64,000 nt of DNA from positions 1-64,000 of the IMG/VR virus record IMGVR_UViG_3300050821_005343; one strand, given 5' to 3'. A model generated the notes under the pieces. It saw only the letters and a program-made list of their open reading frames with translations. It was not told the DNA's origin and did no database searches. The position numbers were made by a program, and so were the translations under genes. The stretch is from a virus. The first letter of the stretch is position 1. Each line of letters starts with the position of its first letter. Positions 3,396 through 41,256 of this stretch are shown piece by piece.

Positions 3396-3420
3396 AAAAA
3401 AAATCCCGCCGGAGCGGGAT
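3396..3420 (-). terminator. rho-independent terminator
   Basis: Perfect 7-bp stem ATCCCGC/GCGGGAT with a four-base loop and seven T residues after it on the minus strand. It ends the operon whose last gene is 3449-3637. Confidence 0.9.
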
Positions 3421-3448
3421 GGAAGCGGTTTGTGGGGCGGGCTAGCGG

Positions 3449-8759: not shown

Positions 8760-8959
8760 GGCGGCTCGGGGAGAGGCATCCAGTGGGTGACAAGGGCTGG
8801 ATTAAACGACGGCTCAATTTGGTCGCGCTCGGCCCAGTGCCAGATTCTGGCTCCCTTAATCGGCTCGACCCAGCTAACGACTCTATGTTCTCCGTCGAAT
8901 AGGATCATGATGTAGCTGCCATCCTTCGGCGCGGTCTCTATCGGCTGCCATTTGCTCAT
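8741..8959 (-). CDS. DUF551-like protein
   Basis: 72 residues. Starts MSKWQPIETAPKDGSYIMI and ends VTHWMPLPEPPQ, the two signature blocks of the DUF551 family found widely in phages. Function unknown. Last gene of the leftward replication operon; ATG overlaps the stop of the primase gene. Confidence 0.85.
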   Translation of the reverse strand: MSKWQPIETAPKDGSYIMILFDGEHRVVSWVEPIKGARIWHWAERDQIEPSFNPALVTHWMPLPEPPQSSDS

Positions 8960-11235
8960 TCCTCGTCGTCCTCTTCCACAGCCTCAAGGCCGTTCAACGA
9001 CATGTAGCGGAAGCCTCGCTTCTTTTTTATGGGCCTCCACCGGCCGTGGTCTGTTAGCCATTCGATCGCGTCGTTCAACTTGCGCTTGTCCATCTTGCTT
9101 ACACCTGCACGGCGAGTAAGTTCCGTCTTGGTCAAGCCTTTGGGGAAGCCTTCCACGGCCCTGAGCAGGGTCTTGCAATTGTCCTCGAACTCCGAGCCGG
9201 ACATGTAGCGGCGCATGCCGTCCTGGAGCATGGTGACGCTTTTGAAGACGATCGCCTCGCCGAACAGCACGTCGTCTACCGTTATCGCCGGAGCCGCGAA
9301 GTCTCGCGATACGGCGCGAATCATGGCCAGCTTGATCGTCTGCTCCGCGGTGCGCTTGACGAGTCCGGCAGTGTACGTCGCCTCCTCGATCATGCGCTCC
9401 TGCCAGTCCCAAACGGCGTCCCATCGCCCTTCCGCGGCCTCGTCGGCCCACGGCACCGGATATAGGAACGGATCCGCCAGCGGGTTCCTGTAGGCCGCCT
9501 TATGCGTCTGCGGAGCTGGCCACGCCTCGAAGGCAGCGTCGTAGGCTTCTTTTAGCGCGCTTGGTATACCGGCTTTGGTAGACAGCTTACGGTTGCGCAC
9601 GCTGCAGGGTTGAATGGATATGACGGTCAATCTATTAAGGAAGCCGTCTACGGTGTTCTCTTCGGTCAGTCCTTTGAAGAACAGGTCTGGCGTTGACACA
9701 CCAGCAATTGAAAAACACGGGCTGAAGATCGGCTCGCTCGAGGACAGCGTTTCGCTGCCGGCCTTGTCCTTGCCGAGGTAAATTCCTCCGACCTTGGAGT
9801 TTCCGTATAGCTCGAGCAGCGTCTTGCGACGGTTTTTGGCATATTGCGGCGAGTTGCGGCCGGAGCCCTCCTGCAGCCATGCGCCGATTTCATCCATTGG
9901 AGAAACGGAGCCGGGCTTGAAGCGGACGATTCGCTCAATCGCCGCGTCGCTACTGAGGTCGCCCGCACCGAGCATATGATCCATTCCGCCGCCGCGCAGT
10001 AAGATGTTTTTGACAGCAAATGGAACCACGTCCTTTCCATAGCCAGTCCCGGCCAGGCCGACCAAGTAGAGGTTCGGCGCCAGCCCGGACGGGCCGACGT
10101 AGCGGCGCCCCATGAACGCCGACATGATGCCGATAGCGGCCAGGAGCGACAACTCAAGCGAAGGCACGAAGCTGTTCTCAAAGATCCACTGAGCTGTAGT
10201 TTCTAGCAAGCCGCCGGCAACCTTGAAGTCGAACGGATCGAGCTTTGCTTCCGGCGCGCCGAGCGGGACTTCGACGTCGGCGGGCGGCGGGTCTGCCTTA
10301 ACCGGCTTGCGGAACACGAACTTGACCGGCTCCGGATCTTTGAAGCCCAGCCGTTCGCGCAACCACTTTTCGGCGGTGGGGAAGTCCACGGAGTGGCTTT
10401 CCATCACGACGTCTAGGGCGGTCATCCCGCGGTCGTCGCCCCAGTCCTTGATGCCCTGCGGAGAAAACCCGACGTTGGCGTTCTCGGCGCCCTTCCAGAT
10501 CGCCTTGCCGCGCCATGTGCCGTTGTGTGCGCGCTTGGCGTCGATGCCCAACTCGGGCACCCAGTCGGAAAAGCGCGTCAGGGCGACTTCGTTGATCTCT
10601 CGCCATAGGCCGCCGCCTTCTGACGCCGCCGGCCGTTCGACCGGTGCGTAGTAGCCATGGGGGGCCAAAGCTGCGCCCAGCCGTGCTGCGATGTCGTCAG
10701 GCAATAGCGGCAGGCGGTCGGTTGTGATGTGCTCTAGCGTGCTGGCCGTGAGCCATTCATATGGGCGCCCGGTGTCGGGATGGACGGTCGGAGGAAGAAT
10801 CGTTTGCTTGCCGTGGCACAGGAGATCAAGGACGCGCTCGCCGTGGACATTGTAGGCGGTGCTGACGACTGCCGGTCGCGCGCGATAGAAAAGCGTCCGG
10901 CCCTTCCGGCCCATTTTCTGTACTGGGCTTTCCTCCGGTATGGCGCCTTCGATGGCCTTGACGATCTCTGAGTTATCCGTATCGATATCCACGCCCACGA
11001 GGCCGCCGCTGGCCTTACCGAGGGCTACGCATACTTGAGCGTCTGGCCACTTCTCCCAGATCTCAGTCTCGAGCGTTGTAGGCAGGCGGTCGCAGAAGCG
11101 ATTCCACTCGATATCACCCCACCAGCGACCTTTGGAGAACGATCCGGGGCGCTTGGTGCCGGGCAAGACGGGAATAGCGCTGAAGCCTTGGTCGACGAGT
11201 CGGGCGCCGACGCGGGCATAAGGGCTATCAGACAT
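8956..11235 (-). CDS. bifunctional primase-polymerase with C-terminal helicase-like ATPase
   Basis: 759 residues. The N-terminal archaeo-eukaryotic-type Prim-Pol domain has the catalytic acidic pair in VGVDIDTDNSE (D83, D85) and the later GKQTILPPTVHPDTG block with the conserved His. The C-terminal half is a DUF3987-like ATPase: a P-loop variant GLAGTGYGKDV (about residues 393-403), Walker B MDEIG near 447, and an arginine-rich end. It would make primers and probably load or act as the replicative helicase. The Lys of the P-loop is followed by D rather than S/T, a deviation to note. The largest early gene; overlaps the upstream gene by eight bases. Confidence 0.9.
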   Translation of the reverse strand: MSDSPYARVGARLVDQGFSAIPVLPGTKRPGSFSKGRWWGDIEWNRFCDRLPTTLETEIWEKWPDAQVCVALGKASGGLVGVDIDTDNSEIVKAIEGAIPEESPVQKMGRKGRTLFYRARPAVVSTAYNVHGERVLDLLCHGKQTILPPTVHPDTGRPYEWLTASTLEHITTDRLPLLPDDIAARLGAALAPHGYYAPVERPAASEGGGLWREINEVALTRFSDWVPELGIDAKRAHNGTWRGKAIWKGAENANVGFSPQGIKDWGDDRGMTALDVVMESHSVDFPTAEKWLRERLGFKDPEPVKFVFRKPVKADPPPADVEVPLGAPEAKLDPFDFKVAGGLLETTAQWIFENSFVPSLELSLLAAIGIMSAFMGRRYVGPSGLAPNLYLVGLAGTGYGKDVVPFAVKNILLRGGGMDHMLGAGDLSSDAAIERIVRFKPGSVSPMDEIGAWLQEGSGRNSPQYAKNRRKTLLELYGNSKVGGIYLGKDKAGSETLSSSEPIFSPCFSIAGVSTPDLFFKGLTEENTVDGFLNRLTVISIQPCSVRNRKLSTKAGIPSALKEAYDAAFEAWPAPQTHKAAYRNPLADPFLYPVPWADEAAEGRWDAVWDWQERMIEEATYTAGLVKRTAEQTIKLAMIRAVSRDFAAPAITVDDVLFGEAIVFKSVTMLQDGMRRYMSGSEFEDNCKTLLRAVEGFPKGLTKTELTRRAGVSKMDKRKLNDAIEWLTDHGRWRPIKKKRGFRYMSLNGLEAVEEDDEE

Positions 11236-14817: not shown

Positions 14818-16422
14818 CTATTCCGCCGCAACGGCCAGCGCTGCAGGACGCGCGTCGACCACGTTGATCCACTTGTCCTTCGGCTTGACGGCGATCTCAG
14901 TCGTTGGCCTAAGTTCCGCAGCCCGCGACATCCACGAAACAGCCGTTCGCGGCAGCGGCATCTGCCCGCCGTGCGCAAGCCAGAACTTGTCTGCGATCTT
15001 GCCGCGGAAGTCTGTATGCTCTGGAGAATACCAAGCTTTGTGCGTCACGATGCCGCATCGGAATTTCGCCAGCACGCTTGTCGGCCTCTCCGGCTTGTAG
15101 TGCATCGCGAACGTCCGCTCGCTAACCCGCACCCACTCGGCCGGCGCGTTGCCCATGATCGCCATGGCGCTCGCTTTGGCGGTCAGCTTGCTTACGGCGC
15201 TGGGCGTGAACACATGGCCGCAGTCTGGGCATTCCATTATGCTGGCGTGTATTAGCGAGTGGCACGTCGGGCATTCCTTGACCGGCGCGACTCCGCCGCC
15301 TGTTTTCTCTCCGGGGGGCTTCACGCAATCGACCGGGCCGTGGGTGCGGATGAGGCCGGCGAAGTCCAGCACCAAGCAGTTGTCCTTCCCCGGCGCATTG
15401 CGCGTGCCGCGGCCCATCATCTGGACGTACAGGCTGGCCGATGCGGTCGGCCGGAGGGCCATGATCATGTCCACTCCAGGCGCGTTGAAGCCGGTGGTCA
15501 GGACGTTCGCATTAGTCACGCATCGGATATGACCTGCCTTGAAGTCTTCGAGAATACGACGCCGTTCCTCCGAAGGGGTCGCTCCCGTAATGGTCTCCGC
15601 CACAAATTGTCGTAGTCGAATCTCGTCTCGAACGTGATAGGCGTGCTCGACACCAGAACAAAAGGCGAGCCATGACTTGCGGTCCCGCCCATACGCGACC
15701 GCTTCGTCAATCGCACGACGCGTTGTTTCGGTTTTGTCAACCGCAGCTTGAAGTTGTTTCTCAATGTATTCGCCTCCTGATTTGCCAACGCCTGTTAGGT
15801 CAAAGCCCGTCTCGGTTGCTTTGGTGACGAGCCGTGCTAGATAGCCGTCTCTAACTCCGTCGCTGATGCCGTAGGTGTAGACTATGCGGTCGAACATCGC
15901 GCCGTCGCCTTTGTCTAACCGGCCGGAGCCGAGGCGGTACGGAGTCGCGGTCAAACCAGCGACGCGCATGTCAGGATTAGCCAAGCGCAGCTCGGCTATA
16001 AAGCGTCCGTACATCGTGGACGCCTTACGCGGCACAAGGTGCGCTTCGTCGATCAGCAGCAAGTCAACAGAGCCGAACGCCGCGGCGTTGCGATGCGCGG
16101 TTTGAATGCCGGCGAAGATGATTTGCTGACGTGTCGCGCGTGCTGTCTTGCCAAAGCCTGCGCTGTGGATACCGGCATAGTCAGCGCCCCGCCACCAATT
16201 GGCTAGGAATTCCTTGTAATTCTGTTCGATGAGTTCCTTAACGTGCGTTACTACGACAATTTTCTTGTCGTAACTTCTAACTACCGCTTTACAAAGCTCG
16301 GCCAGAACAAGCGACTTTCCTGTCCCGGTAGCCATGTCGACTAGCGGCGAACCGCTGTCCGTCTCTAAAAAATCTAAGACGGCGTCGACGGCGGCTCGCT
16401 GATATGGTCTAAGCGTGTGCAC
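14818..16422 (-). CDS. SF2 DNA helicase with C-terminal zinc ribbon
   Basis: 534 residues. Q-motif-like LRPYQ at the start, Walker A MATGTGKS (about residues 30-37), LLIDEAH near 127, GLTATPYR near 155, and motif VI QMMGRGTRNAPGK. Similar to UvsW/RecG-type and type-I-restriction-like helicases found in phage replication modules. Near residue 390 it has a CPTC...CPDCGHVF zinc ribbon. Probably remodels forks or recombination intermediates. Start overlaps the upstream gene by 14 bases. Confidence 0.93.
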   Translation of the reverse strand: MHTLRPYQRAAVDAVLDFLETDSGSPLVDMATGTGKSLVLAELCKAVVRSYDKKIVVVTHVKELIEQNYKEFLANWWRGADYAGIHSAGFGKTARATRQQIIFAGIQTAHRNAAAFGSVDLLLIDEAHLVPRKASTMYGRFIAELRLANPDMRVAGLTATPYRLGSGRLDKGDGAMFDRIVYTYGISDGVRDGYLARLVTKATETGFDLTGVGKSGGEYIEKQLQAAVDKTETTRRAIDEAVAYGRDRKSWLAFCSGVEHAYHVRDEIRLRQFVAETITGATPSEERRRILEDFKAGHIRCVTNANVLTTGFNAPGVDMIMALRPTASASLYVQMMGRGTRNAPGKDNCLVLDFAGLIRTHGPVDCVKPPGEKTGGGVAPVKECPTCHSLIHASIMECPDCGHVFTPSAVSKLTAKASAMAIMGNAPAEWVRVSERTFAMHYKPERPTSVLAKFRCGIVTHKAWYSPEHTDFRGKIADKFWLAHGGQMPLPRTAVSWMSRAAELRPTTEIAVKPKDKWINVVDARPAALAVAAE

Positions 16423-23675: not shown

Positions 23676-24689
23676 TTAGGCATTTGTTTTCGACCGATCG
23701 GCAATAAGCCTGGCCAGCGCGGCGTCGGAAAGTTTTGGCACGCTCGCCTTGCGCGCATACAGCTTGGCCATGTCATTGCCAAGGATTGCTCCAATCTCCC
23801 GGTCAGTCGCTCCGCTCTCGGCGAGCTTGACCGCAAGTGCTTTGCGCAGCCCGTGCGCGCTGCCGGGAACGCCTGCGGCGACGCACGCTTCCTTAAACCA
23901 ATTGCCGAACGACTCCTTGACGAACGGGCGGCCGTAGTCGTTCACGACGAACGACTCACCGCCTGGTGTCGCTGCGATCGACCGCGCAAGGGGCGGCAGG
24001 ATGCGAATAGAGACCCGCTGGCCGGTCTTGGCGGTGTCTAAGATGATTGAGCCGTCCATGACGTTCTTCGGCCCTACGCGGGCAGCGTCGCCGCGTCGTA
24101 GGCCGGTCCATAGCATTAGGTCAAACGCCAGCCGTTCTCGCGTACCGACGTGCCAGTGCGACTCGAACCTCGAAAGTTCTTCGGTAGTCCATGTATGGAA
24201 ACCATCGCCACGCAATCTGGAGACTTTGATTCCGACAGTAGGGTCGACGTCTATGTGTTCTCTGGACAAAGCCCATTGAAAAATGGCGCGAAGCGTTCCG
24301 AGGAAGTTTCTGGCTTGAGCGGGTGTGCCAGATCGTGCATCAAGGCTTGCGATGATGAATTTACGGGTCCAGACTTCGAGGGGCTGGTTTCCGGCGCGCT
24401 CGAGGGCGACGCGCATGAGGTTGTCTCGCTGACGTTTAGTTGCAATGGATAGCCTAGACCAAGCCGGGCTTGCGCGGTAGAGATTCCAAAGCCACTCGAA
24501 CGAGCCTTCACCCCTTCTAGGTCGAGCAGCATTTGTTCCCGAGTCTGCAAGTCGGTATTCTCGTAAGAACTCTGCGCTTCCGTAGTCCCCGCGCAGACGA
24601 ACACGCCGCCCAGTTCCCCTCCGATAGTACCAAAACGTTTTACCACGGGATTCCTCTCGGCGTAGGTAGGGGAGTCTTGGTCTGGGCAT
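23676..24689 (-). CDS. int: tyrosine-type site-specific integrase
   Basis: 337 residues from ATG 24689, eight bases after the upstream stop. N-terminal basic DNA-binding part (YLRREESRGKTFWYYRRGTG), core-binding domain, then the catalytic domain: LMLWTGLRRGD (Arg I near 200), HGLRKA (His-x-x-Arg near 280) and LYARKA with the presumed nucleophilic Tyr near 308. The box-III His/Trp position reads GND instead of the usual GH. It would insert the phage at the tRNA site matching the attP core downstream. The frame extends upstream to 24839 but overlaps the preceding gene without an RBS. Confidence 0.93.
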   Translation of the reverse strand: MPRPRLPYLRREESRGKTFWYYRRGTGRRVRLRGDYGSAEFLREYRLADSGTNAARPRRGEGSFEWLWNLYRASPAWSRLSIATKRQRDNLMRVALERAGNQPLEVWTRKFIIASLDARSGTPAQARNFLGTLRAIFQWALSREHIDVDPTVGIKVSRLRGDGFHTWTTEELSRFESHWHVGTRERLAFDLMLWTGLRRGDAARVGPKNVMDGSIILDTAKTGQRVSIRILPPLARSIAATPGGESFVVNDYGRPFVKESFGNWFKEACVAAGVPGSAHGLRKALAVKLAESGATDREIGAILGNDMAKLYARKASVPKLSDAALARLIADRSKTNA

Positions 24690-24696
24690 GCACCCA

Positions 24697-24873
24697 TTAT
24701 GCGTGCGCAACAGGTGGAGGCAAGCGTTTTTGTTTCGGCGCCGGCCCCGCCGACTGCACAATGCAAATCGCGCCGCTCGGCAAAAGCTCGACTTGCCAGA
24801 CGCCTGGTGCTTTGGCCGCCGCGCGTAGGGCGCGTGCAAGGTCGGCTTGGCGGTGGGTGGCGCGCTGGGTCAC
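24697..24873 (-). CDS. small protein typical of integrase-linked alphaproteobacterial phage operons
   Basis: 58 residues. GTG 24873 overlaps the upstream stop (GTGA), and the stop is seven bases before the integrase ATG. Pattern TQRATHRQADLARALRAA, then VELLPSGAICIV. I recall similar 50-80 residue proteins directly upstream of phage integrases; function unknown, possibly an excisionase-like accessory. Confidence 0.7.
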   Translation of the reverse strand: MTQRATHRQADLARALRAAAKAPGVWQVELLPSGAICIVQSAGPAPKQKRLPPPVAHA

Positions 24874-25523
24874 GGCTTGCTCCCCGGAGAGATCGGCAGC
24901 CCGCGCACGCGCTCGAGCAGAACCTGAAGGTTTGCCAGCGCGCGCCAGGCGACCTTGACGTCGTGAAAAAAACCGTCATCGTCGACAGTGCCGGCTTCCG
25001 CAAGATGGCGCATGAGGCAGTCAAGCTGGTCGGTGGACTTGCCGCGCGCCCAGTGCAGCGGCTCGCCCTTGTTGTGCTTCTCGTTGCCGGCGTGTGACAG
25101 AGCGGCGACTTCCGCCAATGCGTCAGGAAAATAACGTAGCAGGCCGGAGTGCATTGGAAGCTTCTTGCGCGATTCGCTGTCAGTCAAGAGGCGGGTCGGG
25201 CAACCGGCGGCGGCTATCAGTTCCGCCATAGCGTCGACAACGGGGGGGTCAAACGCATCTTCAGGCTTTCGGTCCCGCGAACCTTCCCTCTCGCCCGCGC
25301 GAGGCGTGTTGGTGATGCCTGGCGTGTGAACGCCGGTCGCGTACCATTCAGACCCGTCCCATTTGTACTCGCCGCCGTCGACCCACTTGCGGTCGCCAGG
25401 TAGGGGACTGTTGGGGACAGTGACCCAACATGAAGAATCGTCCCGCCAGACCTGCTCTGTACCGTCGGCAAGGACTCGGCGGCCTTCGGTTTTATTTCCC
25501 ATCTCTCCACCCCATCCACTCAT
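24870..25523 (-). CDS. DUF5664-like protein (putative dATP/dGTP diphosphohydrolase)
   Basis: 217 residues from ATG 25523, overlapping the upstream stop (TGATG). The C-terminal 110 residues hold RKKLPMHSGLLRYFPDALAEV, EPLHWARGKSTDQLDCLMRH, and VKVAWRALANLQ, the conserved blocks of the DUF5664 family, which is annotated as dNTP diphosphohydrolase. It would adjust nucleotide pools. The N-terminal 100 residues are a W-rich domain (VWRDDSSCWVTVP) that appears phage specific. Confidence 0.8.
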   Translation of the reverse strand: MSGWGGEMGNKTEGRRVLADGTEQVWRDDSSCWVTVPNSPLPGDRKWVDGGEYKWDGSEWYATGVHTPGITNTPRAGEREGSRDRKPEDAFDPPVVDAMAELIAAAGCPTRLLTDSESRKKLPMHSGLLRYFPDALAEVAALSHAGNEKHNKGEPLHWARGKSTDQLDCLMRHLAEAGTVDDDGFFHDVKVAWRALANLQVLLERVRGLPISPGSKP

Positions 25524-26719
25524 CAAGCCACACTCACAATTGTCTGCCCGTACCAGCCGCTAGCGTTGTGATAGACGTTCGCCGTCATGCTGCGGCCGGA
25601 CTGATAGCCCTTGCCAGCGTGCCAGGCGTCCTTGGCGGCTATCGTCTCGTATGATCTCCAGATCATGCTCCCCGCAGTGCCGCCCTTCGCATAGTGGTGG
25701 ACGTGGCCGAAGTCAGCGTAACGCCAAATCGTGTCGCCCCACATCTTCGGCCATTCGGTTGCGGCAAACAGCGCGGCGCGCTCTGGCTTAAGCTCGTCTC
25801 CGTGCGTCTTGAACAGCATTGTCTTGCCGAACTGGTGGACGAAGAACTTGCTAGGGTTGAAGTTGAGTTCGACCCGCGGCTCGTTGCGAAACCAAGCCCA
25901 CAGCGCGAGCGCCGCAGCCATTGCGATTTCAGGGTCGTGATTGCCGCGAAGCCAGCAGACGATTACTTTTTCGTGCTTAGCAAGTAGCCGCTCGATGCAG
26001 GAAACTGCCAGTTTTAGGCCAACTTGCAAAACCTTGCCGTATCGGCCGTCAACGTCAACCAGTGTTCCCTTGGCGGTTTCGTTCTTGGAGCTGTTGGAAT
26101 GAAAGAAGTCGCCGAGGTTCGTAAAGATAGCAGTTTCGGAAGCCTGCGTGCGCCCGACTAGCTCATCCATCTTGTCGACCAGCAGCTTCTCGCCGATCTT
26201 CAGATCATAAGATGTGCCGGTCTCTGGCTTCCATGCCAGCAAGCCGAGATGGTGGTCACCGAGGATGTAGTCGGTCAGCAGCGCCGATTGCGACACCGTA
26301 GGCCGCACGATCGGCAGCCTTGGCGTTATCGAGGACAGCGCCTCTTTGATGCTGTCGATTGAGAACGCGGCGACGCTGGCATCGCGGTCTGACTTGATCC
26401 ACTTGGCGACTTCTCGTCCTTCCGCATCAACGAGCGCCGAGACGCCCTTGATGCGCTGCCCGGTAGGAAGCTCGTAGACTTCGCCGGCCGCTTTGGTTTG
26501 CTTTACCCAGACGTCTCCGTCCTTCGCGGATATCTGGCGGGTGGCCATCCCCGGCAGCCCCAGCCGGTACCCAAGCGCCCCGCGCTCGGCGCGACGCCGC
26601 TGCTTGCTGCGCCGCAAGCGCATACAGTCGTAGGAGACGTTGGCCTTGTCGGCAGCCTCTTGCAGGCCGCCGCACTCGTCGACAAAGGCCGTCCAGTTGG
26701 TTTCTTGTTCGGCCGTCAT
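25523..26719 (-). CDS. calcineurin-like metallophosphoesterase
   Basis: 398 residues. The N-terminal 60 residues look like a DNA-binding HTH (GGLQEAADKANVSYDCMRLR). The metal-binding motifs are in order: GDHHLG near 155, LGDFFHSN near 203, RGNHDPE near 258, KTHGDE near 305 and GHVHH near 341. Phage proteins of this build are thought to be nucleases or phosphodiesterases of the Mre11/SbcD fold; substrate unknown. It lies 31 bases behind the membrane operon. Confidence 0.88.
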   Translation of the reverse strand: MTAEQETNWTAFVDECGGLQEAADKANVSYDCMRLRRSKQRRRAERGALGYRLGLPGMATRQISAKDGDVWVKQTKAAGEVYELPTGQRIKGVSALVDAEGREVAKWIKSDRDASVAAFSIDSIKEALSSITPRLPIVRPTVSQSALLTDYILGDHHLGLLAWKPETGTSYDLKIGEKLLVDKMDELVGRTQASETAIFTNLGDFFHSNSSKNETAKGTLVDVDGRYGKVLQVGLKLAVSCIERLLAKHEKVIVCWLRGNHDPEIAMAAALALWAWFRNEPRVELNFNPSKFFVHQFGKTMLFKTHGDELKPERAALFAATEWPKMWGDTIWRYADFGHVHHYAKGGTAGSMIWRSYETIAAKDAWHAGKGYQSGRSMTANVYHNASGWYGQTIVSVA

Positions 26720-26750: not shown

Positions 26751-27254
26751 TCATTGGTCGACTTTGTTGGCGTTCAGCATGAACGATGGGTCGATGAATA
26801 TTCCACCTTCGGCAGACGATGCGTTGTGGCCCCCATATGGATTGCCAGACGACGCCGCGTCCCCTCCATTTCGGCACACATGCACAGTCCCGTTTTGGGC
26901 TAGAGAGTCGGCTATGTCGTGCAGGCTATCCTTTAGTCCTTTGGTGAGTTCTATTTCGTAAGACCTTGGTACGCCGCCCTTATAGATGGCCCATAGATCG
27001 GCTTTGCCGTCGTCGTCTCTGGCCAACATCCCCACCAGTTCAAAGCAGGTTGGCAGCCCATTCAGGGATGTCATGACGGGAAGCCCAGCGATAGAATTGG
27101 CTGCAAAGGGGCTATAGATAGCCAATAGCGCGAGCAACGCCGACGCCGATACCTTAGTCAGGGTTGGAGCCGACGAGGTTCGGAACAGCCACGCAACAAC
27201 CACACCCATAATCAGCAGCATAGCACCGATTGTAAGGGAGAACTGAGATATCAT
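26751..27254 (-). CDS. membrane protein of the ExbBD-like operon
   Basis: 167 residues. Two N-terminal membrane helices (about 5-22 and 36-57), then a soluble part with two Cys (PTCFELVG and VHVCRNGG) that could form a periplasmic disulfide. The C-terminus is Gly/Ser/Asn-rich. ATG overlaps the stop of the ExbD-like gene. Not similar to any named family I know. Confidence 0.8.
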   Translation of the reverse strand: MISQFSLTIGAMLLIMGVVVAWLFRTSSAPTLTKVSASALLALLAIYSPFAANSIAGLPVMTSLNGLPTCFELVGMLARDDDGKADLWAIYKGGVPRSYEIELTKGLKDSLHDIADSLAQNGTVHVCRNGGDAASSGNPYGGHNASSAEGGIFIDPSFMLNANKVDQ

Positions 27255-27841
27255 TTTGTGGATACCGGCTTGAGTGGAGGGTCTACGAAAGTCATATCAC
27301 CATTAGGGGAAAGATCAAAAGACGCTACATTGATCGTTTGTTTTTGATATGTGAGCGATATGTCTTTAGAGAACAGCGTCTTCACTTCAGGATTTAGTCC
27401 TGTAATCTCTACGTGCGCGGGCAGAGGGAGGCCGGGGGCACCTTCATGATTGGAAAATCCGAAGAGATTTACGGCTAAGTCGTAATGCCCAGGCTCAATG
27501 CAGCGGAGAGCTATTGTTTCCTTGACGGCGCGCACCTTCGTCGTGGACCCATCTGGTAGATGGATAATGCTGTCTCCCCACCCCTTATTGTCTTGGTCTA
27601 GGGTTGCGCATCCGACCTGCCGAGAGTTGAAAAAAACCGGCATCTTGCGAGGGGTTTGGAGCCATATGTCAACGTCGGCATCGGGCTCAGTGCTCCACTC
27701 GACAGTCAGTAGATACTCGGCTTTTTCATCAACTCCGGCATGAACCGGCTTAGGTGGATTAACGGCGACGATGACGACGCAGACCACGCACAAGAGAAGG
27801 TCTGAGATGCCGATCCAGATGGTGGAGCGGTCGCGGGTCAT
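27251..27841 (-). CDS. ExbD/TolR/MotB-like partner protein
   Basis: 196 residues. N-terminal helix ISDLLLCVVCVVIVAVNPP with Asp14 at the cytoplasmic end, the position of the proton-carrying Asp of ExbD/TolR. The remaining 165 residues are a periplasmic beta-rich domain (DADVDIWLQTP..., HYDLAVNLFGFS) that is not a peptidoglycan-binding OmpA domain. Four-base overlaps with both neighbours. Because the Asp and channel partner are both present, an energised complex is the best guess. Confidence 0.78.
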   Translation of the reverse strand: MTRDRSTIWIGISDLLLCVVCVVIVAVNPPKPVHAGVDEKAEYLLTVEWSTEPDADVDIWLQTPRKMPVFFNSRQVGCATLDQDNKGWGDSIIHLPDGSTTKVRAVKETIALRCIEPGHYDLAVNLFGFSNHEGAPGLPLPAHVEITGLNPEVKTLFSKDISLTYQKQTINVASFDLSPNGDMTFVDPPLKPVSTK

Positions 27842-27966
27842 AGATGGAAAGCCCAGCCCAGGAAAACACCAAGCGCCACTAGCGTAATCCAGAAGATCAC
27901 AAGCCCCACGGCTTGCTTAACGCCTTGGCGCTGCGCCCAGTCAGGGTCGCTATCCCACGGGCTCAC
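27838..27966 (-). CDS. 42-residue single-helix membrane protein
   Basis: GTG 27966 overlaps the channel gene stop (GTGA) and its stop overlaps the ExbD-like ATG (ATGA). Polar start (SPWDSDPDWAQRQGVKQ), then one helix (AVGLVIFWITLVALGVFLGWAF). Conserved placement between the two partners suggests a subunit of the same complex. Confidence 0.75.
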   Translation of the reverse strand: MSPWDSDPDWAQRQGVKQAVGLVIFWITLVALGVFLGWAFHL

Positions 27967-28418
27967 TTCCGCGCCCTCCGAATGCCTTGCTCAAGCGAAT
28001 AGGTCATCACGCCGATAAGAATCGCCGCCGTGCCGCCGCTCGCCGTGGTGAAGAGGGAGGTCGCCAGCGCCGTGAAGCTGGTTGAGCCACCGGCCAGAGA
28101 TTTTGCCTGAAGGGAAAGGCCGATAGCGGTGCCGACGAACCCCAGCATGACCGCCCATCGCTCGGCGTTGTGGCCGAAGTCCGTCGACGGCGGCTTCGTC
28201 ATGAAGTTGTGATTGGCGGCGTAGTTATCCACCAACCACGCCTGCCGTCCCAGATACACAGCGGTCCCGACGAACAGCACCGCAATCACGCTGGTCATCA
28301 TGCTTGCGTCGTTAGCGTAGACCGATTGAGGAACGCCGCGCGTCCACGCAAAGAATGCGAGGCCGGCGCAGGCTAGGCAGATAACGAAGTGGGATAAGAA
28401 GGTGAGGCGGCCGTTCAC
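27963..28418 (-). CDS. MotA/TolQ/ExbB-family channel protein
   Basis: 151 residues with four hydrophobic segments (about 7-26, 39-57, 86-104, 115-140). The last two match the ExbB/TolQ/MotA core: MLGFVGTAIGLSLQ at 91-104, then FTALATSLFTTASGGTAAIL at 115-134, with the Gly-x-x-Gly-Thr turn and the T-A-S-G-G-T row that lines the channel. The protein is short (E. coli TolQ has about 230 residues) and lacks the large cytoplasmic loop. With the ExbD-like product it would form a proton-driven complex. Confidence 0.82.
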   Translation of the reverse strand: MNGRLTFLSHFVICLACAGLAFFAWTRGVPQSVYANDASMMTSVIAVLFVGTAVYLGRQAWLVDNYAANHNFMTKPPSTDFGHNAERWAVMLGFVGTAIGLSLQAKSLAGGSTSFTALATSLFTTASGGTAAILIGVMTYSLEQGIRRARK

Positions 28419-28876
28419 AGCTTCAACTCATCTTTTGGGTCGTTGGCAGGCGTGGCGATTTCGTCTTTGCCGCCGACGATGTCCTTGAGGACCATCACGA
28501 TTGCGGGCGGCAAAATCATGGGCGAATACATCAGGTGAGGCTGATGATCCGACCCCTCTAGCTTTAGAGGAACGATGCAGGCTTCCTTGTCGCCCTTAGT
28601 CCAGAATAGAAGGCTAGCTGACTTTGCCTGAACCAACATCGCGCCGTCGCCGGGGGGCAAGCCTTCCGGGGTGATGGCCGACCCGATATAGACGCCCATC
28701 ATAAGGTGGTACTGACCGGCATTCAGCTTGGTGAACTTCGCGCCCTTCGCGTCAGCCTCCATCTTGGAGATGGGCTCGCACTTGGCAGTCGGCGCTTCCG
28801 CCGCCGAAACCGGCAACGCTATGAAACCCATAAGGAACGATTGTACGATTCCGTACATAAGGCATGCGCGCTTCAT
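28415..28876 (-). CDS. exported protein, first gene of the ExbBD-like operon
   Basis: 153 residues from ATG 28876 (GGAGG nine bases upstream). N-terminal Sec signal peptide ending LPVSAAEA; mature part has two Cys (AKCEP and EACIV) and a C-terminal hydrophobic stretch (YSPMILPPAIVMVLKDIVGG) that may anchor it. The longer frame to 28936 would start inside the hairpin region and is rejected. Confidence 0.78.
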   Translation of the reverse strand: MKRACLMYGIVQSFLMGFIALPVSAAEAPTAKCEPISKMEADAKGAKFTKLNAGQYHLMMGVYIGSAITPEGLPPGDGAMLVQAKSASLLFWTKGDKEACIVPLKLEGSDHQPHLMYSPMILPPAIVMVLKDIVGGKDEIATPANDPKDELKL

Positions 28877-28895: not shown

Positions 28896-28926
28896 AAAAA
28901 GGGGCGGCGAGCCGAAGCCCGCCGCC
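28896..28926 (-). terminator. strong rho-independent terminator or attenuator in front of the membrane operon
   Basis: Minus strand: GGCGGCG/CGCCGCC stem extended by two more pairs across one mismatch, TTCG loop, then CC and TTTTT. It lies only 20 bases upstream of ATG 28876. It should end lysis-gene transcripts; any promoter upstream of it for the operon would have to pass it. Confidence 0.85.
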
Positions 28927-28940
28927 TAGCAAACATTATT

Positions 28941-29010: not shown

Positions 29011-29298
29011 TTAACGGGTGCGGTGAGGGCGGAAAATCGAGATGAGTGAATCGATCCCGCCGTGGTGGATGGCGTGCGGATGCGCGACGTGGGGCGCGGG
29101 GCGCGCTGCGGCGACTCGACTCGGCGCGTGGCGCGGGGCGATCACGGGATGCGGGTCGCACTGGATCATCGTAGTGTAGTCGTTAGGACGAGTTACAACC
29201 CACCTGTTGCAGTCATCGTCTGCAAAAGCGCTAGTGGGGAGCGGCGCGAGTAGGGCGAAAATAATCGATGACCGCGCTAAGCTGCTGCTTAATCTCAT
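29011..29298 (-). CDS. small exported His-rich protein, possible outer spanin analogue
   Basis: 95 residues with a Sec signal peptide (MRLSSSLARSSIIFALLAPL...SAFA-DDDC). The mature part has two Cys and many His and Pro. It overlaps the preceding gene by 68 bases in another frame, the arrangement of Rz/Rz1 spanin genes, but no lipobox is visible (the Cys comes four residues after the cleavage site), so the spanin idea is tentative. Confidence 0.6.
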   Translation of the reverse strand: MRLSSSLARSSIIFALLAPLPTSAFADDDCNRWVVTRPNDYTTMIQCDPHPVIAPRHAPSRVAAARPAPHVAHPHAIHHGGIDSLISIFRPHRTR

Positions 29299-29623
29299 TC
29301 ATCTGCTCCTTTCTTGCCTCGTCGGAGTCCTTTAATATTTGCAGAGTCGCCGCATTCGCATTTTGCGACGCCAGAATCGCAGCTATTGAGGATTCTGTCC
29401 CCTTAACCTCCACGCCTAACGCCGTCACCGTGATCTTCAACGCATCAATGGCGATATCGTCTGCGTGTAACCTTTCCTCCACGGATTTGTCATACTCCTG
29501 GCTATTGTGGCCTTGAGTAAAATAAGTCTGAGAAAGAAATACCAGCGCCGCCCCGACGACCGCCCCCATCGTCCCATTCCACAAGTTTGATCCTGCTCTT
29601 TCACTTAAAACCGGCATATTCAT
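29231..29623 (-). CDS. membrane-anchored coiled-coil protein, possible inner spanin
   Basis: 130 residues from ATG 29623 (AGGA upstream). One N-terminal membrane helix (WNGTMGAVVGAALVFLSQTY), then a periplasmic coiled coil (RLHADDIAIDALKITVTALG ... LQILKDSDEARKEQMNEIKQ). N-in anchor plus coiled coil next to holin and endolysin genes is the inner-spanin layout. A start at 29662 is possible but has no RBS. Confidence 0.65.
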   Translation of the reverse strand: MNMPVLSERAGSNLWNGTMGAVVGAALVFLSQTYFTQGHNSQEYDKSVEERLHADDIAIDALKITVTALGVEVKGTESSIAAILASQNANAATLQILKDSDEARKEQMNEIKQQLSAVIDYFRPTRAAPH

Positions 29624-29668
29624 AATATTGACAATCCTGCTAGCGCTGGCAGTGACAAACATGATAAC

Positions 29669-29746: not shown

Positions 29747-30118
29747 TTAGCGGGGGATATCCTCGATAGCGCCGGTTTTGGTAAGGCCAACGGCTGGACT
29801 CGCCGATGTTATGGCGACAACCTTGACGAAGGGAACGCTGGGGCTATTCACAACGTCGACAACGGCCGAGGCAACGGCTGGATTGCTGCCCACGGCGGCG
29901 GCCACACCGGCGGGTGAATGCGTCATCACGCCCCATCTGGTTAGCAGAGCGCCGCCGCCCAGGGTTATGGCAGCAGTCAGGGGAACAATAAGTTGCTGTG
30001 CCAGATCGGCAGGAAGGATTCCTTTCAGGACAAAATAAGATCCGGGAGCGAGCGCTACTTGAACCGTACCTCTAACGATGGACGTCCACTGTTCCTGGTT
30101 CAGGATTTGATGGTTCAT
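29747..30118 (-). CDS. holin-like membrane protein
   Basis: 123 residues. One or two hydrophobic segments (about 14-32 and 42-64, LIVPLTAAITLGGGALLTRW), then an AGVAAAVGSNPAVASAVVD region and a polar tail. ATG overlaps the endolysin stop. The position fits a holin; similar 'PAGVAAAVGANP' sequences occur in phage holin-like proteins. No direct functional motif exists for holins. Confidence 0.6.
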   Translation of the reverse strand: MNHQILNQEQWTSIVRGTVQVALAPGSYFVLKGILPADLAQQLIVPLTAAITLGGGALLTRWGVMTHSPAGVAAAVGSNPAVASAVVDVVNSPSVPFVKVVAITSASPAVGLTKTGAIEDIPR

Positions 30119-30990
30119 GGCTTTACCGCCGGAGCCGGGGGGACAAGCTTCGCCACTTCCGCGGCGATCAATCCGGGGAGAGATGTGCTCAGTTGCGACG
30201 TGAGCAACGGCACGAGCGTCGTCACTAGCGAGCCGAGATCGAGCGACGGTGCAGGAGTAAGGGTCGCTCCGGCTGCGGGGGTAGCACCCGAAGTCTGGGC
30301 GGAAAGTTGCGTGATAAGCGCCCGGAATAGGCCGGCCGCGAGGGATTCAACGATCGGCGCAAGCGCCGCAATCAATGCTGGGTCCATAAGTGTTACTCCA
30401 AGGGGTGCGGGTGTGGGCGTGGGGGTTGGCGCTGTAGTTGGCGCGGGGGCTGCAGCGACGGGCGGAAGGGGAACTGAGGCCGGAACGGCCGGCGATAGTA
30501 CAGTAGACGGAGGCGTCCAAACTTTTGCAAATTCCTGTGCGAAACCAATACGAATGTCGAGTACACGACCAGCTGCTGAAGGGTGTTCATACTGGTCACA
30601 AATGTTGGCGGTTAAGGTTTCGAGGCTCTTCGTGCCCGCTACCAAATCGTTCCAGAGGCTTTTATACCAGCCTTTAAGTTCGTAGAGGTAAAACGCTGCT
30701 TGTGCCTCAATCGACTGCCAAGCGCCAAACCACTTTACACCAAACGCCTGCATGTTCGACAAGCGCGCCGCTTGCCCCGTACCGCTATCACGCCATTGGA
30801 AGAGACCGTTGGAACCGTGATCTAGGGCACCAACCGTCACACTTTTGTCTTGGTTCTCTCGAGTCGCATTGCCAACTGAGGCTTGAGCTGATCTCGCGGC
30901 AATCCCAGGAATTGCGAGGTTCGGAAATCCTTGGACAAGGTAATTTGCTAGCTGCGTCTGTCGATCGATGAGATTTACCGGATCTGTCAT
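30115..30990 (-). CDS. endolysin, phage lysozyme-like domain with Pro/Ala linker
   Basis: 291 residues. Residues 1-155 resemble the phage tail-lysozyme type fold: QASVGNATRENQDKS with a candidate catalytic Glu, GSNGLFQWRDSG, and an aromatic helix EAQAAFYLYELKGWYKSLWN. A linker of Pro, Ala and Thr follows (about 160-200), then an amphipathic C-terminal half that could aid membrane or envelope contact. It is coupled to the holin-like gene. The precise bond cut is unknown. Confidence 0.78.
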   Translation of the reverse strand: MTDPVNLIDRQTQLANYLVQGFPNLAIPGIAARSAQASVGNATRENQDKSVTVGALDHGSNGLFQWRDSGTGQAARLSNMQAFGVKWFGAWQSIEAQAAFYLYELKGWYKSLWNDLVAGTKSLETLTANICDQYEHPSAAGRVLDIRIGFAQEFAKVWTPPSTVLSPAVPASVPLPPVAAAPAPTTAPTPTPTPAPLGVTLMDPALIAALAPIVESLAAGLFRALITQLSAQTSGATPAAGATLTPAPSLDLGSLVTTLVPLLTSQLSTSLPGLIAAEVAKLVPPAPAVKP

Positions 30991-31000
30991 ACCCTGACCC

Positions 31001-31240
31001 TCACGAAATGGGATGTTGTTTTGTCTGGGTGCCGCGCAAGGTGGCGACTAGCTCTTCAAATCCGAACTCTTTCTCGTATATTTTGGCTGAGAAAAATAAC
31101 TTGCCAGCTAACGATGCCTTGGCCAGGGCCAGAGTCCCGGAAAAATTGTATCGCCGCTTTTGCAGCGTGACCCTGCGGCGGCCCTCGACCCATATTGATT
31201 CGACGATGGCGAACTCTGTAAGCGGCGAAGGATTGATCAC
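31001..31240 (-). CDS. hypothetical protein, 79 residues
   Basis: GTG 31240 overlaps the glycosyltransferase stop (GTGA). Basic protein with RRRVTLQKRRYNFSGTLALA. The start at 31273 is less likely. Not recognised. Confidence 0.65.
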   Translation of the reverse strand: MINPSPLTEFAIVESIWVEGRRRVTLQKRRYNFSGTLALAKASLAGKLFFSAKIYEKEFGFEELVATLRGTQTKQHPIS

Positions 31241-32280
31241 GCGCGTATCTCCATTTCGACAAACGACAGCCAAGCCCTCTCGCTTGCCTCGACGTATTTT
31301 GTCAGGTCATATTGATTGATCTTGGCGTTTCGGATTGGCTGTTCGTAAATGTTAAGCAGATGGTCTCGGATGTCTTTCGCATCGTTCATGGACACCGGCC
31401 CTTGGGTAAACCAAGGGATCTCATCGCATCCCAAGAAAGGAATTCCCTGAACGACCTGATCGGCGCCAACTATGTTGAAGGTTTCGGAGAAGCTGATCTG
31501 CATCGCAATGTCCATATCCGAAGATAGAGACATGAAATCTTCGTGACTGGTCCACGTATGAAGGATCAATTCGTAGCGGCTTGGGTCTAGCTGCCCGAAC
31601 AAGCCGCGCAGATTCTGATCAACGGGCATGCCGTTGGCCTCAACCCGGCCGGTGTTCATGTGGAACTTAAGTCGCTTCTTGCCGACCTTCTGGACGAAAT
31701 CTACTGCGGCAACGGCTTGAATCAGTTGGTTCTTGAGCGGCCTGATGGCGCCGAAGCAGCTTACATCTACCCACGGCTTGTCGTAATCGATCGGCTTGGG
31801 GGCCGTCATAGACGTCGGATAGTAGTTTGGAAGATAGGTGATGTCTTTGTTAAGGACGCCGTGCTTGCCTACGCAGATCGTCTCGATGTCGTATAGCATC
31901 TTGGGCGAATTTGGCGATACCTTAACGTTGGCAAAGCTGACGTAGTCAAGAATCCAATCCATCGCCATGCCTTCGCAGGACATGAAAGGCATGTCGGAAT
32001 GGATTCTAATTACCCATTTAACCTTTGGGTGTAGCTTTTGTAGGATGTGGAATTTTTCTGGAACTACCCATACGGCCTCGATGATGACGATATCCGGCCG
32101 GAACTTAGTTACTTCGCGGTCGATGCTGTTGTTGTCAATGACCACGACCATCTTTGAGTTGATGCCGTTCTTAACCAGCATCTCATTGACGAAGTTTGCC
32201 GAGTTGTACAGACCTGTAGATATCGGAAGGTCGCCTATCTGGCTCTCTCGCCGCTTAAGAACGAAGAGGATCTTTGTCAT
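31237..32280 (-). CDS. glycosyltransferase, family 4-like
   Basis: 347 residues. The N-terminal Rossmann part (ILFVLKRRESQIG..., PDIVIIEAVWVVP) and C-terminal part with GAIRPLKNQL, HMNTGRVEANG and SFSETFNIVGADQVVQGIPF match the two-domain GT-B build; the SFSETF..VGAD..QGIPF stretch is the nucleotide-sugar site. It could glycosylate virion, host surface polysaccharide or the exported proteins encoded next to it. Starts behind the promoter at 32308-32336. Confidence 0.82.
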   Translation of the reverse strand: MTKILFVLKRRESQIGDLPISTGLYNSANFVNEMLVKNGINSKMVVVIDNNSIDREVTKFRPDIVIIEAVWVVPEKFHILQKLHPKVKWVIRIHSDMPFMSCEGMAMDWILDYVSFANVKVSPNSPKMLYDIETICVGKHGVLNKDITYLPNYYPTSMTAPKPIDYDKPWVDVSCFGAIRPLKNQLIQAVAAVDFVQKVGKKRLKFHMNTGRVEANGMPVDQNLRGLFGQLDPSRYELILHTWTSHEDFMSLSSDMDIAMQISFSETFNIVGADQVVQGIPFLGCDEIPWFTQGPVSMNDAKDIRDHLLNIYEQPIRNAKINQYDLTKYVEASERAWLSFVEMEIRA

Positions 32281-37994: not shown

Positions 37995-38184
37995 ACCAAA
38001 CCGCAGCGAACCAAACCGTTGGATGTGGTTTTCGGTAGAAACGCCGTCCGTATTCAAGGAACACAAGCTTCCAGCCTCTAGCGCTGATTGGTCAACTGCC
38101 GATCAGCGCAAGTTCCGAGAACTTGAAACCCTAGCCGAAAACTATAGCACGCACATCCATCGATCAGGATATCGGCGTGGCTAA
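37975..38184 (+). CDS. moron protein, 69 residues
   Basis: ATG 37975 with GGAGAG five bases upstream; overlaps the previous gene by 20 bases and converges on the leftward 38164-41256 gene. Rich in Trp, Asn and Ser (PNRSEPNRWMWFSVETP). Not recognised. Confidence 0.6.
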   Translation: MPMYHAEPNRSEPNRWMWFSVETPSVFKEHKLPASSADWSTADQRKFRELETLAENYSTHIHRSGYRRG

Positions 38185-41100
38185 CTCCGCAGCCGCCGGC
38201 CGCCCAAACATCTCCGCCGTCCAGCCCGACATAGACCGTACAAACGGCGCTATCTCGCCCTTATATTTCTCCCAGCCGCGCCGGAACGTAACCCCGGCCG
38301 GCCACGGCTGGGCGCGGACGACGTGCTTGGCCGACGGCTCCATTGGCACCCCGCATAGGATGATGCGCTCAAAGCCAAGCTTGCGGGCGATTTTGACCGA
38401 AAACAGGCCGCTTGAGCCGGCCCAGTCCTCGACGTGGTGCGTGACGTTCGGCCCGCTGCGGTGTGCCCAGACCTGAGATGGCGCCGGATGACCGTTGGCC
38501 TCACGGCGTTTAAGCCAGTCAGCTAGTTTGGTTGGGTGTAGGCTGACGGCGATGCAAGGGCCGGCCGCTTGTGGAATCATGTCGTTGATGACGAATCGGG
38601 TTACTTCGCAGCCGACGCAAAGCGCCTCGGCTTCGGCCAGCTCCTCTTTGACTCTCTCGGAGCCGCCGACCACGAGGGCGATCTTGCGGGTGGTGGGCGC
38701 GACCGGCGCGGCAACACGCCCCGGCTTTGTCGCCTCGAAGCACATGGACTCGATGCGGTTGAACTTGTCGCCAATGACGCGCCCATGGCCCTCCACGCCG
38801 CGCAGGGCGGAATGGCGGCTGATGCCCACCTGACACTGCTCAATCGCCTCAAAGCCAGCGTAGCGCAGCAGGTTGGACATTACGCTGGCGGTCCACGCCA
38901 TCTGGTGCCCGTGAGAGAACAGGATAGCCTTAAGCGCGCCCTTTAGCGTTCCGTCACCTCCGAATTTCTTGGCAAAGTCGAAATAGGCTTGGTCCGCCAT
39001 GTTGGCGATCTGCTCAACCGATGGCACGACCACTCGCAAAACGCCACCCGGAGCCAATACGCGGAACGCCTCTTCAAAGAATCCTATGGCTTGGTGGCAT
39101 GAGACGTGCTCTATGCAGTGCTCAATGAAAATGTAATAGGCGCTATTTTCTGCCCACGGCAGCGGCTGGGTTACGTCTACGTCCGCGTCGTGATTTAGCC
39201 AGCCGGATAGCTTGTTTGTGCCGCAACCGAGATTGAGGAGGAGACCGGCTTCGACCGCCGGTAAGACCCCCTTCCCTTCTTCGGACGGACCACACGCGGT
39301 CGATACTTGGGGGACCGCAGATCCTTGGCTACCGGGTTCCTTTTTCGCTGACATCGCATCTTCAAAGAACCTATCCGTAGCCCACACGTCATTGTGGCAG
39401 TGGGTGATCCAGTCCAAGCCTAAACTCAAAACATTGTCGTGCGTAATCTGATGCTTGTCGCCCCTCACGGCTTTAATCGGCAACAGAAACACATCTGATT
39501 TGATCAAGTTCGCTATTACAATTTCAGGCGTCGGAGCGACCCGCCTAGCCTTCCAGTTGTAATTCTGAATGAATCCTGAATCCCGGACATAAGCGGTCTT
39601 GAAAACCATTAGGCCGGTTTCAATCCAACCGGCTATGTCCTTCTTCATGCCGGATACTTTGGTCGTGCAGCACTCCCGCTGCGCCTGAAGCATTTGGTCG
39701 ATGAGGCCGTCCACCGGAAGGCGCAGCAGGGAGTCGCCCTCGACGTGCGCGACGTAGGTAAATCCCTCCTCGACGGCAATCTCCAGCCCCTTGCAGAAGG
39801 CGCGGCCCCAGCCGTCTTTGCCCCCGCGGCTGAGATGTCCGACATTGTCACCAAAGTCGAAAACTCGATATTGGACCGAAGGATGCTGCTTCTTCCATGC
39901 CTCGCTGACGAGGGGCAGCGGCGAGGCGCTGTCGACCAGCAAGAGCGGAGCGCCGGGGTTAAGCGCGCTGGTTAGCTCCAGCCATTGCTCAGTGAGCGTC
40001 TGGCGAGCATCGCTGTCGACGTAGGTTGTGGCGAAGATTAGGAGCGGGGAGGTCTGGGATCGTCGCTCCCCGCCCGCACAAGAAGCAATCACAGCGCCAA
40101 GATCCCCTTGGGTGTTCGCTGCGTATCCTGTGGCACCGTGTATATGCGCGAACTCGCGCACTTTGTCAAGTGCCGATGGCATATCAATCCGCTTGTCGCA
40201 AGGATGCCGTTCTGTGTGACAGTCGCACGGATTGACTGGATCAATACCCAGCGTCGGCGTTAGGTGGGCGCCGGCCGCTTGTGTCGTGCGGAAGCTTTCC
40301 CTCCCGCCGTAGACGACAACCGAAGGCAGTCCGACCGCTTGCGCCAGGACCGGAGCAAACCCGGCATTGAAGAAACCAATGTCGGCAATCGAGAACAAAG
40401 CCGCCATCGTCTCGAAATCAAGCTCACCGCTGTGTAACTTAACGTCGGCTGGCTGTTCTTCGCCGACTATCCACTCCAGCTTCGGCTCAAGGTCAGCAAT
40501 CGAGACAACGAAATACCCAGATCTAGCCGCTGCATAGAGCGCCGCATAGGCAGCCGAATCGGGGTTTCTGCTTTCACCGTTCCACTCCCGTCGACGAACA
40601 ACCGGCCGGTAGAGCATAAGCGGCTTGCCGCCCGTGTCCCACCCGGCCCGCAGCGCCTCGGCCTTCGCGCGCCATTCGGCCGGGATCGGCAACGAGAAGT
40701 CGCCCCGCTTACCCGCTAAGCCGCACTCGGCCATCATCGTCTCGAGGATAGAGCCGTAAATATCTATTTGCTCTTTTTTGTACCAAAGCTTGACGCGCCG
40801 AGCGTCCCCCGGTTCACGCGATGGTACTTTGAATAAATGCTGCTCGCGCTCGATCGTCTTGGATTGCGCGCGTAGTCTCGTCGACTTGAATGTTAGGTGA
40901 AGTCCCTCGGCGACGAGATCATGGTAGAGCTGCCAGTGGCACGTCGATAGCCAAACCTCGTGGGTTTGCATCAGCTCGCGCACGACGGCGCGCTGGTGCA
41001 AATTGTCGCCGATTCCCCACATGCCGTCGATGACAATGGCGGGCTTGGGCGTTCCTGGCGCGACCGCAGGCAGGACGAAGGGCGGCTGGGTGTCAACCGC

Positions 41101-41256
41101 CGTCACAACCATGCCGGAAGAGCGAAGCCGGTCGGCCTCCTTATCGACTAGCTCTACACCCTCAAGGGTCTTATGCGGCTGGAGATAGCGCTGTATGCTG
41201 CTCGCGTCATAGAATATGCGCAGGCTAGGGCTGGGGTTGCGGATGTTGTAGATCAT
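38164..41256 (-). CDS. 1030-residue multidomain glycan enzyme: GT9-like, GT2-like and methyltransferase domains
   Basis: At least four parts. Residues about 75-385: heptosyltransferase/GT9-like (IDGMWGIGDNLHQRAVVREL; SIADIGFFNAGFAPVLAQAV, GLPSVVVYGG). About 405-600: GT2/GT-A-like (LLIFATTYVDSDARQT, FTYVAHVEGDSLLRLP). About 690-830: SAM methyltransferase (LLLNLGCGTNKLSGWLNHD, EHCIEHVSCHQA, LAPGGVLRVVVPS). About 875-1020: a nucleotide-sugar-like or DUF115-like domain (KIALVVGGSERVK, IILCGVPME). Such a chain would build or modify a glycan. ATG overlaps the upstream stop. Confidence 0.8.
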   Translation of the reverse strand: MIYNIRNPSPSLRIFYDASSIQRYLQPHKTLEGVELVDKEADRLRSSGMVVTAVDTQPPFVLPAVAPGTPKPAIVIDGMWGIGDNLHQRAVVRELMQTHEVWLSTCHWQLYHDLVAEGLHLTFKSTRLRAQSKTIEREQHLFKVPSREPGDARRVKLWYKKEQIDIYGSILETMMAECGLAGKRGDFSLPIPAEWRAKAEALRAGWDTGGKPLMLYRPVVRRREWNGESRNPDSAAYAALYAAARSGYFVVSIADLEPKLEWIVGEEQPADVKLHSGELDFETMAALFSIADIGFFNAGFAPVLAQAVGLPSVVVYGGRESFRTTQAAGAHLTPTLGIDPVNPCDCHTERHPCDKRIDMPSALDKVREFAHIHGATGYAANTQGDLGAVIASCAGGERRSQTSPLLIFATTYVDSDARQTLTEQWLELTSALNPGAPLLLVDSASPLPLVSEAWKKQHPSVQYRVFDFGDNVGHLSRGGKDGWGRAFCKGLEIAVEEGFTYVAHVEGDSLLRLPVDGLIDQMLQAQRECCTTKVSGMKKDIAGWIETGLMVFKTAYVRDSGFIQNYNWKARRVAPTPEIVIANLIKSDVFLLPIKAVRGDKHQITHDNVLSLGLDWITHCHNDVWATDRFFEDAMSAKKEPGSQGSAVPQVSTACGPSEEGKGVLPAVEAGLLLNLGCGTNKLSGWLNHDADVDVTQPLPWAENSAYYIFIEHCIEHVSCHQAIGFFEEAFRVLAPGGVLRVVVPSVEQIANMADQAYFDFAKKFGGDGTLKGALKAILFSHGHQMAWTASVMSNLLRYAGFEAIEQCQVGISRHSALRGVEGHGRVIGDKFNRIESMCFEATKPGRVAAPVAPTTRKIALVVGGSERVKEELAEAEALCVGCEVTRFVINDMIPQAAGPCIAVSLHPTKLADWLKRREANGHPAPSQVWAHRSGPNVTHHVEDWAGSSGLFSVKIARKLGFERIILCGVPMEPSAKHVVRAQPWPAGVTFRRGWEKYKGEIAPFVRSMSGWTAEMFGRPAAAELATPIS

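Follow-up and report, generated by a model that had tools for sequence, protein, structure and literature searches.

A three-gene module of tailed phages and Alphaproteobacteria with a putative MotA/TolQ/ExbB-type subunit

Here we describe a small set of membrane-protein genes that recurs in phages and in bacteria. Its core consists of three genes, encoding a putative channel-type protein (A), a protein with one transmembrane (TM) helix and a periplasmic domain (B) and a third protein built on a TM hairpin. The complete core is present in most of at least 126 distinct viral loci, B occurs in about 15 % of the sampled Alphaproteobacteria genomes, and all of these genes are unnamed. Known members of the motor class to which A appears to belong power flagella, iron uptake, outer-membrane upkeep, gliding and Zorya defence, and we know of no member that forms a recurrent phage gene set. 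The core thus looks like an overlooked molecular machine, shared by well over a hundred other phages and many bacterial chromosomes. We tentatively propose a new family of ion-driven periplasmic machines, composed of A, a beta-domain B, a TM-hairpin third protein and an interchangeable exported effector such as a secreted protease. Such machines would be common to Alphaproteobacteria and many tailed phages and would power a phage activity in the host periplasm, for example the exclusion of competitors. Since Sinorhizobium phage 16-3, a classical laboratory phage, carries the module (p038, p040, p042), its function is directly testable.

The operon and its surroundings

The window, meaning the whole stretch of DNA analysed, comprises 64,000 nucleotides and is part of a 77,861-base IMG/VR virus record (IMGVR_UViG_3300050821_005343, positions 1 to 64,000). 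An earlier note made from these letters had described five overlapping genes chained by four-base overlaps. All five open reading frames (ORFs) are indeed present on the minus strand, and each of the four junctions is a 4-base overlap (GTGA or ATGA). The operon and its context are as follows.

28876-28415, minus strand: exported protein, 153 aa from the ATG at 28876, signal peptide ending ..PVSA-AEA
28418-27963, minus strand: A subunit, GTG start, 151 aa, putative member of the MotA/TolQ/ExbB superfamily, 4 TM helices
27966-27838, minus strand: 42-aa peptide, GTG start, one predicted TM helix
27841-27251, minus strand: B subunit, 196 aa, one TM helix (about 6-27) with Asp14, then a periplasmic domain
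27254-26751, minus strand: third core protein, 167 aa, TM hairpin (4-26, 31-56) and a domain at 70-128
28903-28926, minus strand: terminator-like stem-loop with T-run, just upstream of the first operon gene (exported protein), consensus match only
30115-30990, minus strand: phage tail lysozyme/endolysin (Pfam Phage_lysozyme2, 9.7e-12), upstream context
29747-30118, minus strand: holin-like protein (Phage_holin_10, E=0.0047, below cut-off), upstream context
29231-29662, minus strand: TM and coiled-coil-like protein with a weak Rz-like spanin match (E=0.03), upstream context
25523-26719, minus strand: phosphoesterase, 'DNA repair exonuclease' (phrog_704, 9.5e-86), downstream context
24870-25526, minus strand: protein with a dATP/dGTP diphosphohydrolase N-terminal domain (4.9e-10), downstream context
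23676-24839, minus strand: tyrosine integrase (1.5e-7), downstream context

For the exported protein, the ATG at 28876, with GGAGG upstream as read from the sequence, is preferred over the longer ORF start at 28936 because the longer version would cross the terminator-like stem (28926-28903). Such stems were called by consensus, 10 being found against 6.0 expected; a scan for sigma-70 promoters gave nothing above chance. The window phage encodes a major head protein, a head protease and a tape measure. Its tyrosine integrase supports the temperate lifestyle that had been supposed, and the lysozyme, holin-like and weakly spanin-like TM-coil genes upstream of the operon bear out the supposed lysis-gene neighbourhood.

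Elsewhere in the window, the replication end of the phage is recognisable by a primase-polymerase (8956-11235; Prim-Pol, 3e-17) together with a helicase (14818-16422). The tail region holds a 1,030-aa ORF (38164-41256) with a methyltransferase domain (E=1.5e-4) and a phrog_6804 match, and a 347-aa ORF without any family match (31237-32280) lies just upstream of the lysozyme.

The core proteins and known motor systems

Profile comparisons assign A to the MotA/TolQ/ExbB superfamily, in agreement with the earlier reading of this gene as an ExbB/TolQ/MotA-type channel protein. Taken alone, the window protein reaches only E=0.018 against Pfam MotA_ExbB and, as sole query, finds few relatives; the route to known phages led via the B subunit and distant genome matches, not via window A. 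Homologs of A lie above the Pfam cut-off (8.9e-9 and 1.6e-7), and a profile of 16 A sequences searched against the PDB matches MotA best (8gqy, 1.8e-8), ZorA second (6.5e-7), then TolQ (1.1e-4), with a marginal match to ExbB (0.1). The significant profile match covers the TM3-TM4 core with its GxxG and conserved Thr. By hydropathy, 104 of 115 homologs have 4 TM helices. Their TM2-TM3 loop has a median length of 28 aa, far shorter than that of MotA and TolQ, and almost no cytoplasmic part is left. Conserved positions comprise the TM3 glycines G93 (112/115), G96 (114/115) and G100 (113/115), Thr125 in TM4 (111/115), G128, and Asp37 in the periplasmic TM1-TM2 loop (106/115). Thr97 in TM3 is replaced by Asn in 31 of the 115.

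B had been described as ExbD/TolR-like with the key Asp in its helix, and this description stands in part. Judged by position and conservation, B appears to share with ExbD and TolR a single N-terminal TM helix with Asp: Asp14 is invariant in 15 of 15 wide homologs and kept in 122 of 127 sequences when viral homologs are included. The periplasmic part, however, is all-beta rather than alpha/beta in an AlphaFold2 model of low confidence (pLDDT 61, pTM 0.58, 4 sequences), and neither the window protein nor its homologs match an ExbD family in Pfam or NCBIfam. We therefore reject the identification of B as ExbD, low as the confidence of the model is. In a fold search of the PDB the best match was 2qng, a protein of unknown function (E=2.7e-4, TM about 0.5), while neither ExbD nor TolR was among the matches listed. 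This top Foldseek match of the beta domain may hint at a link to TerD; no TerD for comparison was found in the genomes tried. An OmpA-like peptidoglycan-binding domain, as expected of MotB or ZorB, was detected in B neither by Pfam nor in the low-confidence model nor among the PDB fold matches. Some B homologs give short matches to DUF2135 (PF09906; 0.0018 in L022/L033, 0.066 in L233), at 18.7 and 13.8 bits against a Pfam cut-off of 22 bits, which amounts to motif resemblance and not to membership. Six residues, W49, D56, D58, D84, G87 and E108, are identical in 127 of 127 sequences and might serve as a metal site.

The third protein is a new family, with no creditable match in Pfam, PHROG or NCBIfam. 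Its AlphaFold2 model (pLDDT 84, from a 65-sequence alignment) combines a TM hairpin with a beta-beta-beta-alpha-beta domain, for which the PDB offered nothing below E=0.26. The hairpin loop is K/R-rich in 71 loci against the reverse in 4, which places the domain in the periplasm. The layout of TonB and TolA, with one TM helix, a long spanning linker and a C-terminal TonB/TolA domain, is absent. A resemblance between the C-terminal part of the exported protein and the third protein, suspected by eye, was unsupported (hhalign probability 2.9% and 0.4%).

ExbB-ExbD of the Ton system and TolQ-TolR of Tol-Pal resemble the module in the superfamily to which A is assigned, in a one-TM B with a key Asp, in overlapping genes and in periplasmic work. 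ExbB and TolQ have three TM helices, whereas A has four and almost no cytoplasmic part; B has an all-beta, DUF2135-like domain according to the low-confidence model; a TM-hairpin protein stands in place of TonB or TolA, and the exported partner varies. The MotA-MotB stator shares the 4-TM A subunit and provides the best PDB match, but the phage module has neither the large cytoplasmic torque domain nor the OmpA-type peptidoglycan-binding domain. DUF2135 proteins share with B homologs the short, sub-threshold match, here joined to an ExbD-type TM helix.

ZorA-ZorB of Zorya is likewise a MotAB-like motor tied to phage biology and gives the second-best PDB match. Zorya is reported to require the ZorA tail, peptidoglycan binding and an effector (PMC11890865), and the comparison with Zorya made in the earlier note does not extend to membership, which we reject: the ZorA tail, the OmpA domain of ZorB, a ZorC/D or ZorE effector, a nuclease effector and any PADLOC match are all missing, and the module is here carried by a phage.

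The generic ion transporters (GIT) are a broadly defined class of MotA/ExbB relatives that do not belong to flagella and carry diverse additional domains whose function is unknown, and the accessible part of the survey describing them mentions neither phage-encoded members nor an A-B-third module (PMC12505986). The accessible parts of the open-access literature on the motor class likewise yielded no phage-encoded members, and in the open-access phage literature for these hosts no mention of ExbB, TolQ or a proton channel was found. The claim that no system of this composition has been described thus agrees with the open-access literature, where none was found; a description in a subscription journal or preprint may have escaped the search.

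Conservation of the gene set and its partners

Two scans of viral contigs with B gave 151 and 98 matches. Among the 160 loci analysed (80 of the 151 and 80 of the 98), independent HMMs found A upstream in 145, the third gene downstream in 154 and both in 139, with gene ends often overlapping or abutting. These loci form at least 126 clusters at 90 % identity of B and include contigs of 200-527 kb. Because they were picked by B only, the synteny is independent evidence for a three-gene unit. The conserved unit is A-B-third, loosely joined by an exported partner, and not five genes. Conservation in related phages, proposed earlier as a check, was thus found for the core and not for the five-gene composition: the 42-aa gene is missing between A and B in the nearest relatives, and in just 3 of the 18 gapped viral loci is the A stop chained to a TM micro-ORF. 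On these grounds the 42-aa peptide was rejected as a conserved subunit. Small TM ORFs occur elsewhere, such as p037 in 16-3.

Close relatives with A-B-third are the viral contigs L001, L002, L003 and L012 and a Hyphomicrobiales MAG contig (L005); terminase, head and tail genes are present on contigs of this group. Where the contig extends that far, the exported gene comes last, each time behind a large ORF, which in the four viral contigs measures about 2,300 aa. In the window it comes first, and in window-type phages it is a conserved linked partner. The module of L003 looks decayed (7932-8700, G004), with A frameshifted and B largely missing, and in L001 B is also broken up in the reading frames seen. 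L005 has a 315-aa glycosyltransferase-looking ORF (3313-4260) between the module and an amidase-like gene.

The exported protein, which has no family match in Pfam, PHROGs, NCBIfam or PADLOC, is a swappable partner, often a secreted trypsin-like protease. Using crude hydropathy rules, signal peptides were predicted for 20 of 87 genes upstream of A against 78 of 931 other genes (p=8e-5), and for 3 of 83 downstream. A cluster of trypsin-like secreted proteases occurs in 29 loci (Pfam Trypsin_2, 2.3e-20 for one member), and other loci have small exported proteins as partner, like the window. Subtilisin-like protease genes, recognised by eye, lie downstream of the third gene and face the module in several contigs of large phages (L061, L063 and L072); subtilisin-like, trypsin-like and ClpP-like proteases recur as its neighbours.

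Twenty-seven records of Rhizobium and Sinorhizobium phages, RefSeq duplicates included, contain the module, their B match being unnamed or 'hypothetical'. Besides 16-3, where it lies about 3 kb from immX, the module is found in AP-16-3, NV1.1.1, RHph_X2_25, RHph_TM3_3_14B, RHph_N3_19 and RHph_I1_18, and also in RHph_I1_9 and P10VF of the Pootjesviridae, among others. A phrog_704-type phosphoesterase follows it in 36 loci, 16-3-type phages included, and a lysozyme precedes it in 19, so the gene order of the window is common to 16-3-type phages. The place of the module nevertheless differs among phages: the window group has it next to tail and lysis genes, 16-3 types have it between the lysis and the early genes, and lytic myoviruses have it among replication genes. 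A shared role across phages is therefore not proven.

Proposed mechanism and role

We consider it probable that the operon encodes an ion-driven motor of the MotA/ExbB type that works in the periplasm, a judgement on mechanism and not on role. Homology predicts such a motor from A and B. The sequences show the protein families, their conservation, a topology signal and the gene order, and the stoichiometry, ion flow, motion and partner binding given here are inferred. A pentamer of A would surround a dimer of B, and ions, probably protons, would pass via Asp14 and the threonines of TM3 and TM4. The resulting motion would be handed on to the beta domain that B has in the periplasm; the third protein, with its domain also predicted there, would couple or gate the motor. 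The output would act on the exported partner, which is exchanged between lineages: small exported proteins in the window, a secreted trypsin-like protease in 16-3 types and a DUF3108-like lipoprotein or VWA protein on chromosomes. That A has hardly any cytoplasmic part, and that B and the third protein have their domains in the periplasm, suggests that the work is done there. As to role, the reading we favour, though only as a possibility, is that the phage has taken over an envelope motor and uses it to change the envelope of the cell it infects or lysogenises, chiefly so as to exclude other phages.

The copies in bacteria bear on a second, somewhat doubtful reading, in which the phage copy supplements or replaces an envelope-maintenance motor of the host, keeping up the outer membrane and the proton-motive force (PMF) during long infection or lysogeny and leaving other phages unaffected. 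B was found in 50 of 337 sampled genomes of the class of genome G207, taken to be Alphaproteobacteria, and in 17 of 299 sampled genomes of its phylum. Chromosomal copies keep the A-B-third order, followed by a DUF3108-like lipoprotein gene (1.4e-6, L238); others have a DUF1194/VWA protein gene before the module. This chromosomal presence favours an auxiliary motor, as do the position of cellular copies beside DUF3108-like lipoprotein or metallophosphatase/kinase genes and not in obvious prophages, and the retention of the module in large lytic phages. In a tree of B a supported clade of 31 rows is cell-only, the viral lineages are separate and the window group forms a long branch, with no fewer than 3 switches between cell and virus; among the rows counted as cellular there may be prophages, or viral contigs that were binned into MAGs. 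The cell-only clade again suits an auxiliary motor, but the phage lineages are old and separate and have exported partners of their own, a hint that their task has changed.

A role in lysis, in which the channel would collapse the PMF or, with the exported partner or protease, disrupt the outer membrane, is unlikely. In its favour, the module adjoins the lysozyme, holin-like and spanin-like genes in the window, stands directly beside the endolysin in a clear prophage (G233) and has the lysozyme cluster upstream in the 19 loci mentioned. This neighbourhood, seen in the window, in G233 and in many 16-3-type phages, is not obligate. Pootjesviridae, lytic rhizobiophages of the T4-like kind, have gyrase genes on one side of the module and late sigma, recombination, clamp and other replication genes on the other, which does not support a general link to lysis; an annotated attL separates it from the lysis genes in RHph_TM3_3_14B, and the terminator-like stem does so in the window. 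Its occurrence in bacterial chromosomes also speaks against lysis. The module is a self-contained unit rather than a fixed part of the lysis cassette, and this independence from lysis genes makes superinfection exclusion or a remodelled envelope the better fit.

It is improbable that the proteins are an ExbB-derived scaffold or sensor that has lost ion conduction; they are very small and Thr97 is not universal, but Asp14 and Thr125 are kept over very divergent sequences, as expected of an ion path. Least probable is a defence or counter-defence motor akin to Zorya, sensing phages that enter and signalling to the cytoplasm, for although ZorA ranks second among the structural matches of the A profile, the 28-aa loop leaves no ZorA-type cytoplasmic tail, the low-confidence model of B shows no OmpA/peptidoglycan-binding domain, and no nuclease or helicase effector adjoins the module, nor is there a PADLOC match.

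Some further observations concern genes next to or within the module. An exported or lipoprotein gene follows the chromosomal module in L233 (7410-8105), L235 (7252-7944), L238 (7560-8303) and L262 (7672-8385); it is DUF3108-like by Pfam in L233 and L238 and is apparently the fourth gene of the cellular operon. In L266-L268 the cellular operon is followed by genes that by eye look metallophosphatase-like and Ser/Thr-kinase-like. In three rhizobiophages, homing-endonuclease-like genes lie within the module, in either the A-B or the B-third interval (L039 6541-7083, L040 5240-5998, L041 5270-6007); they are HNH or Seg-like by annotation, that of L041 by eye.
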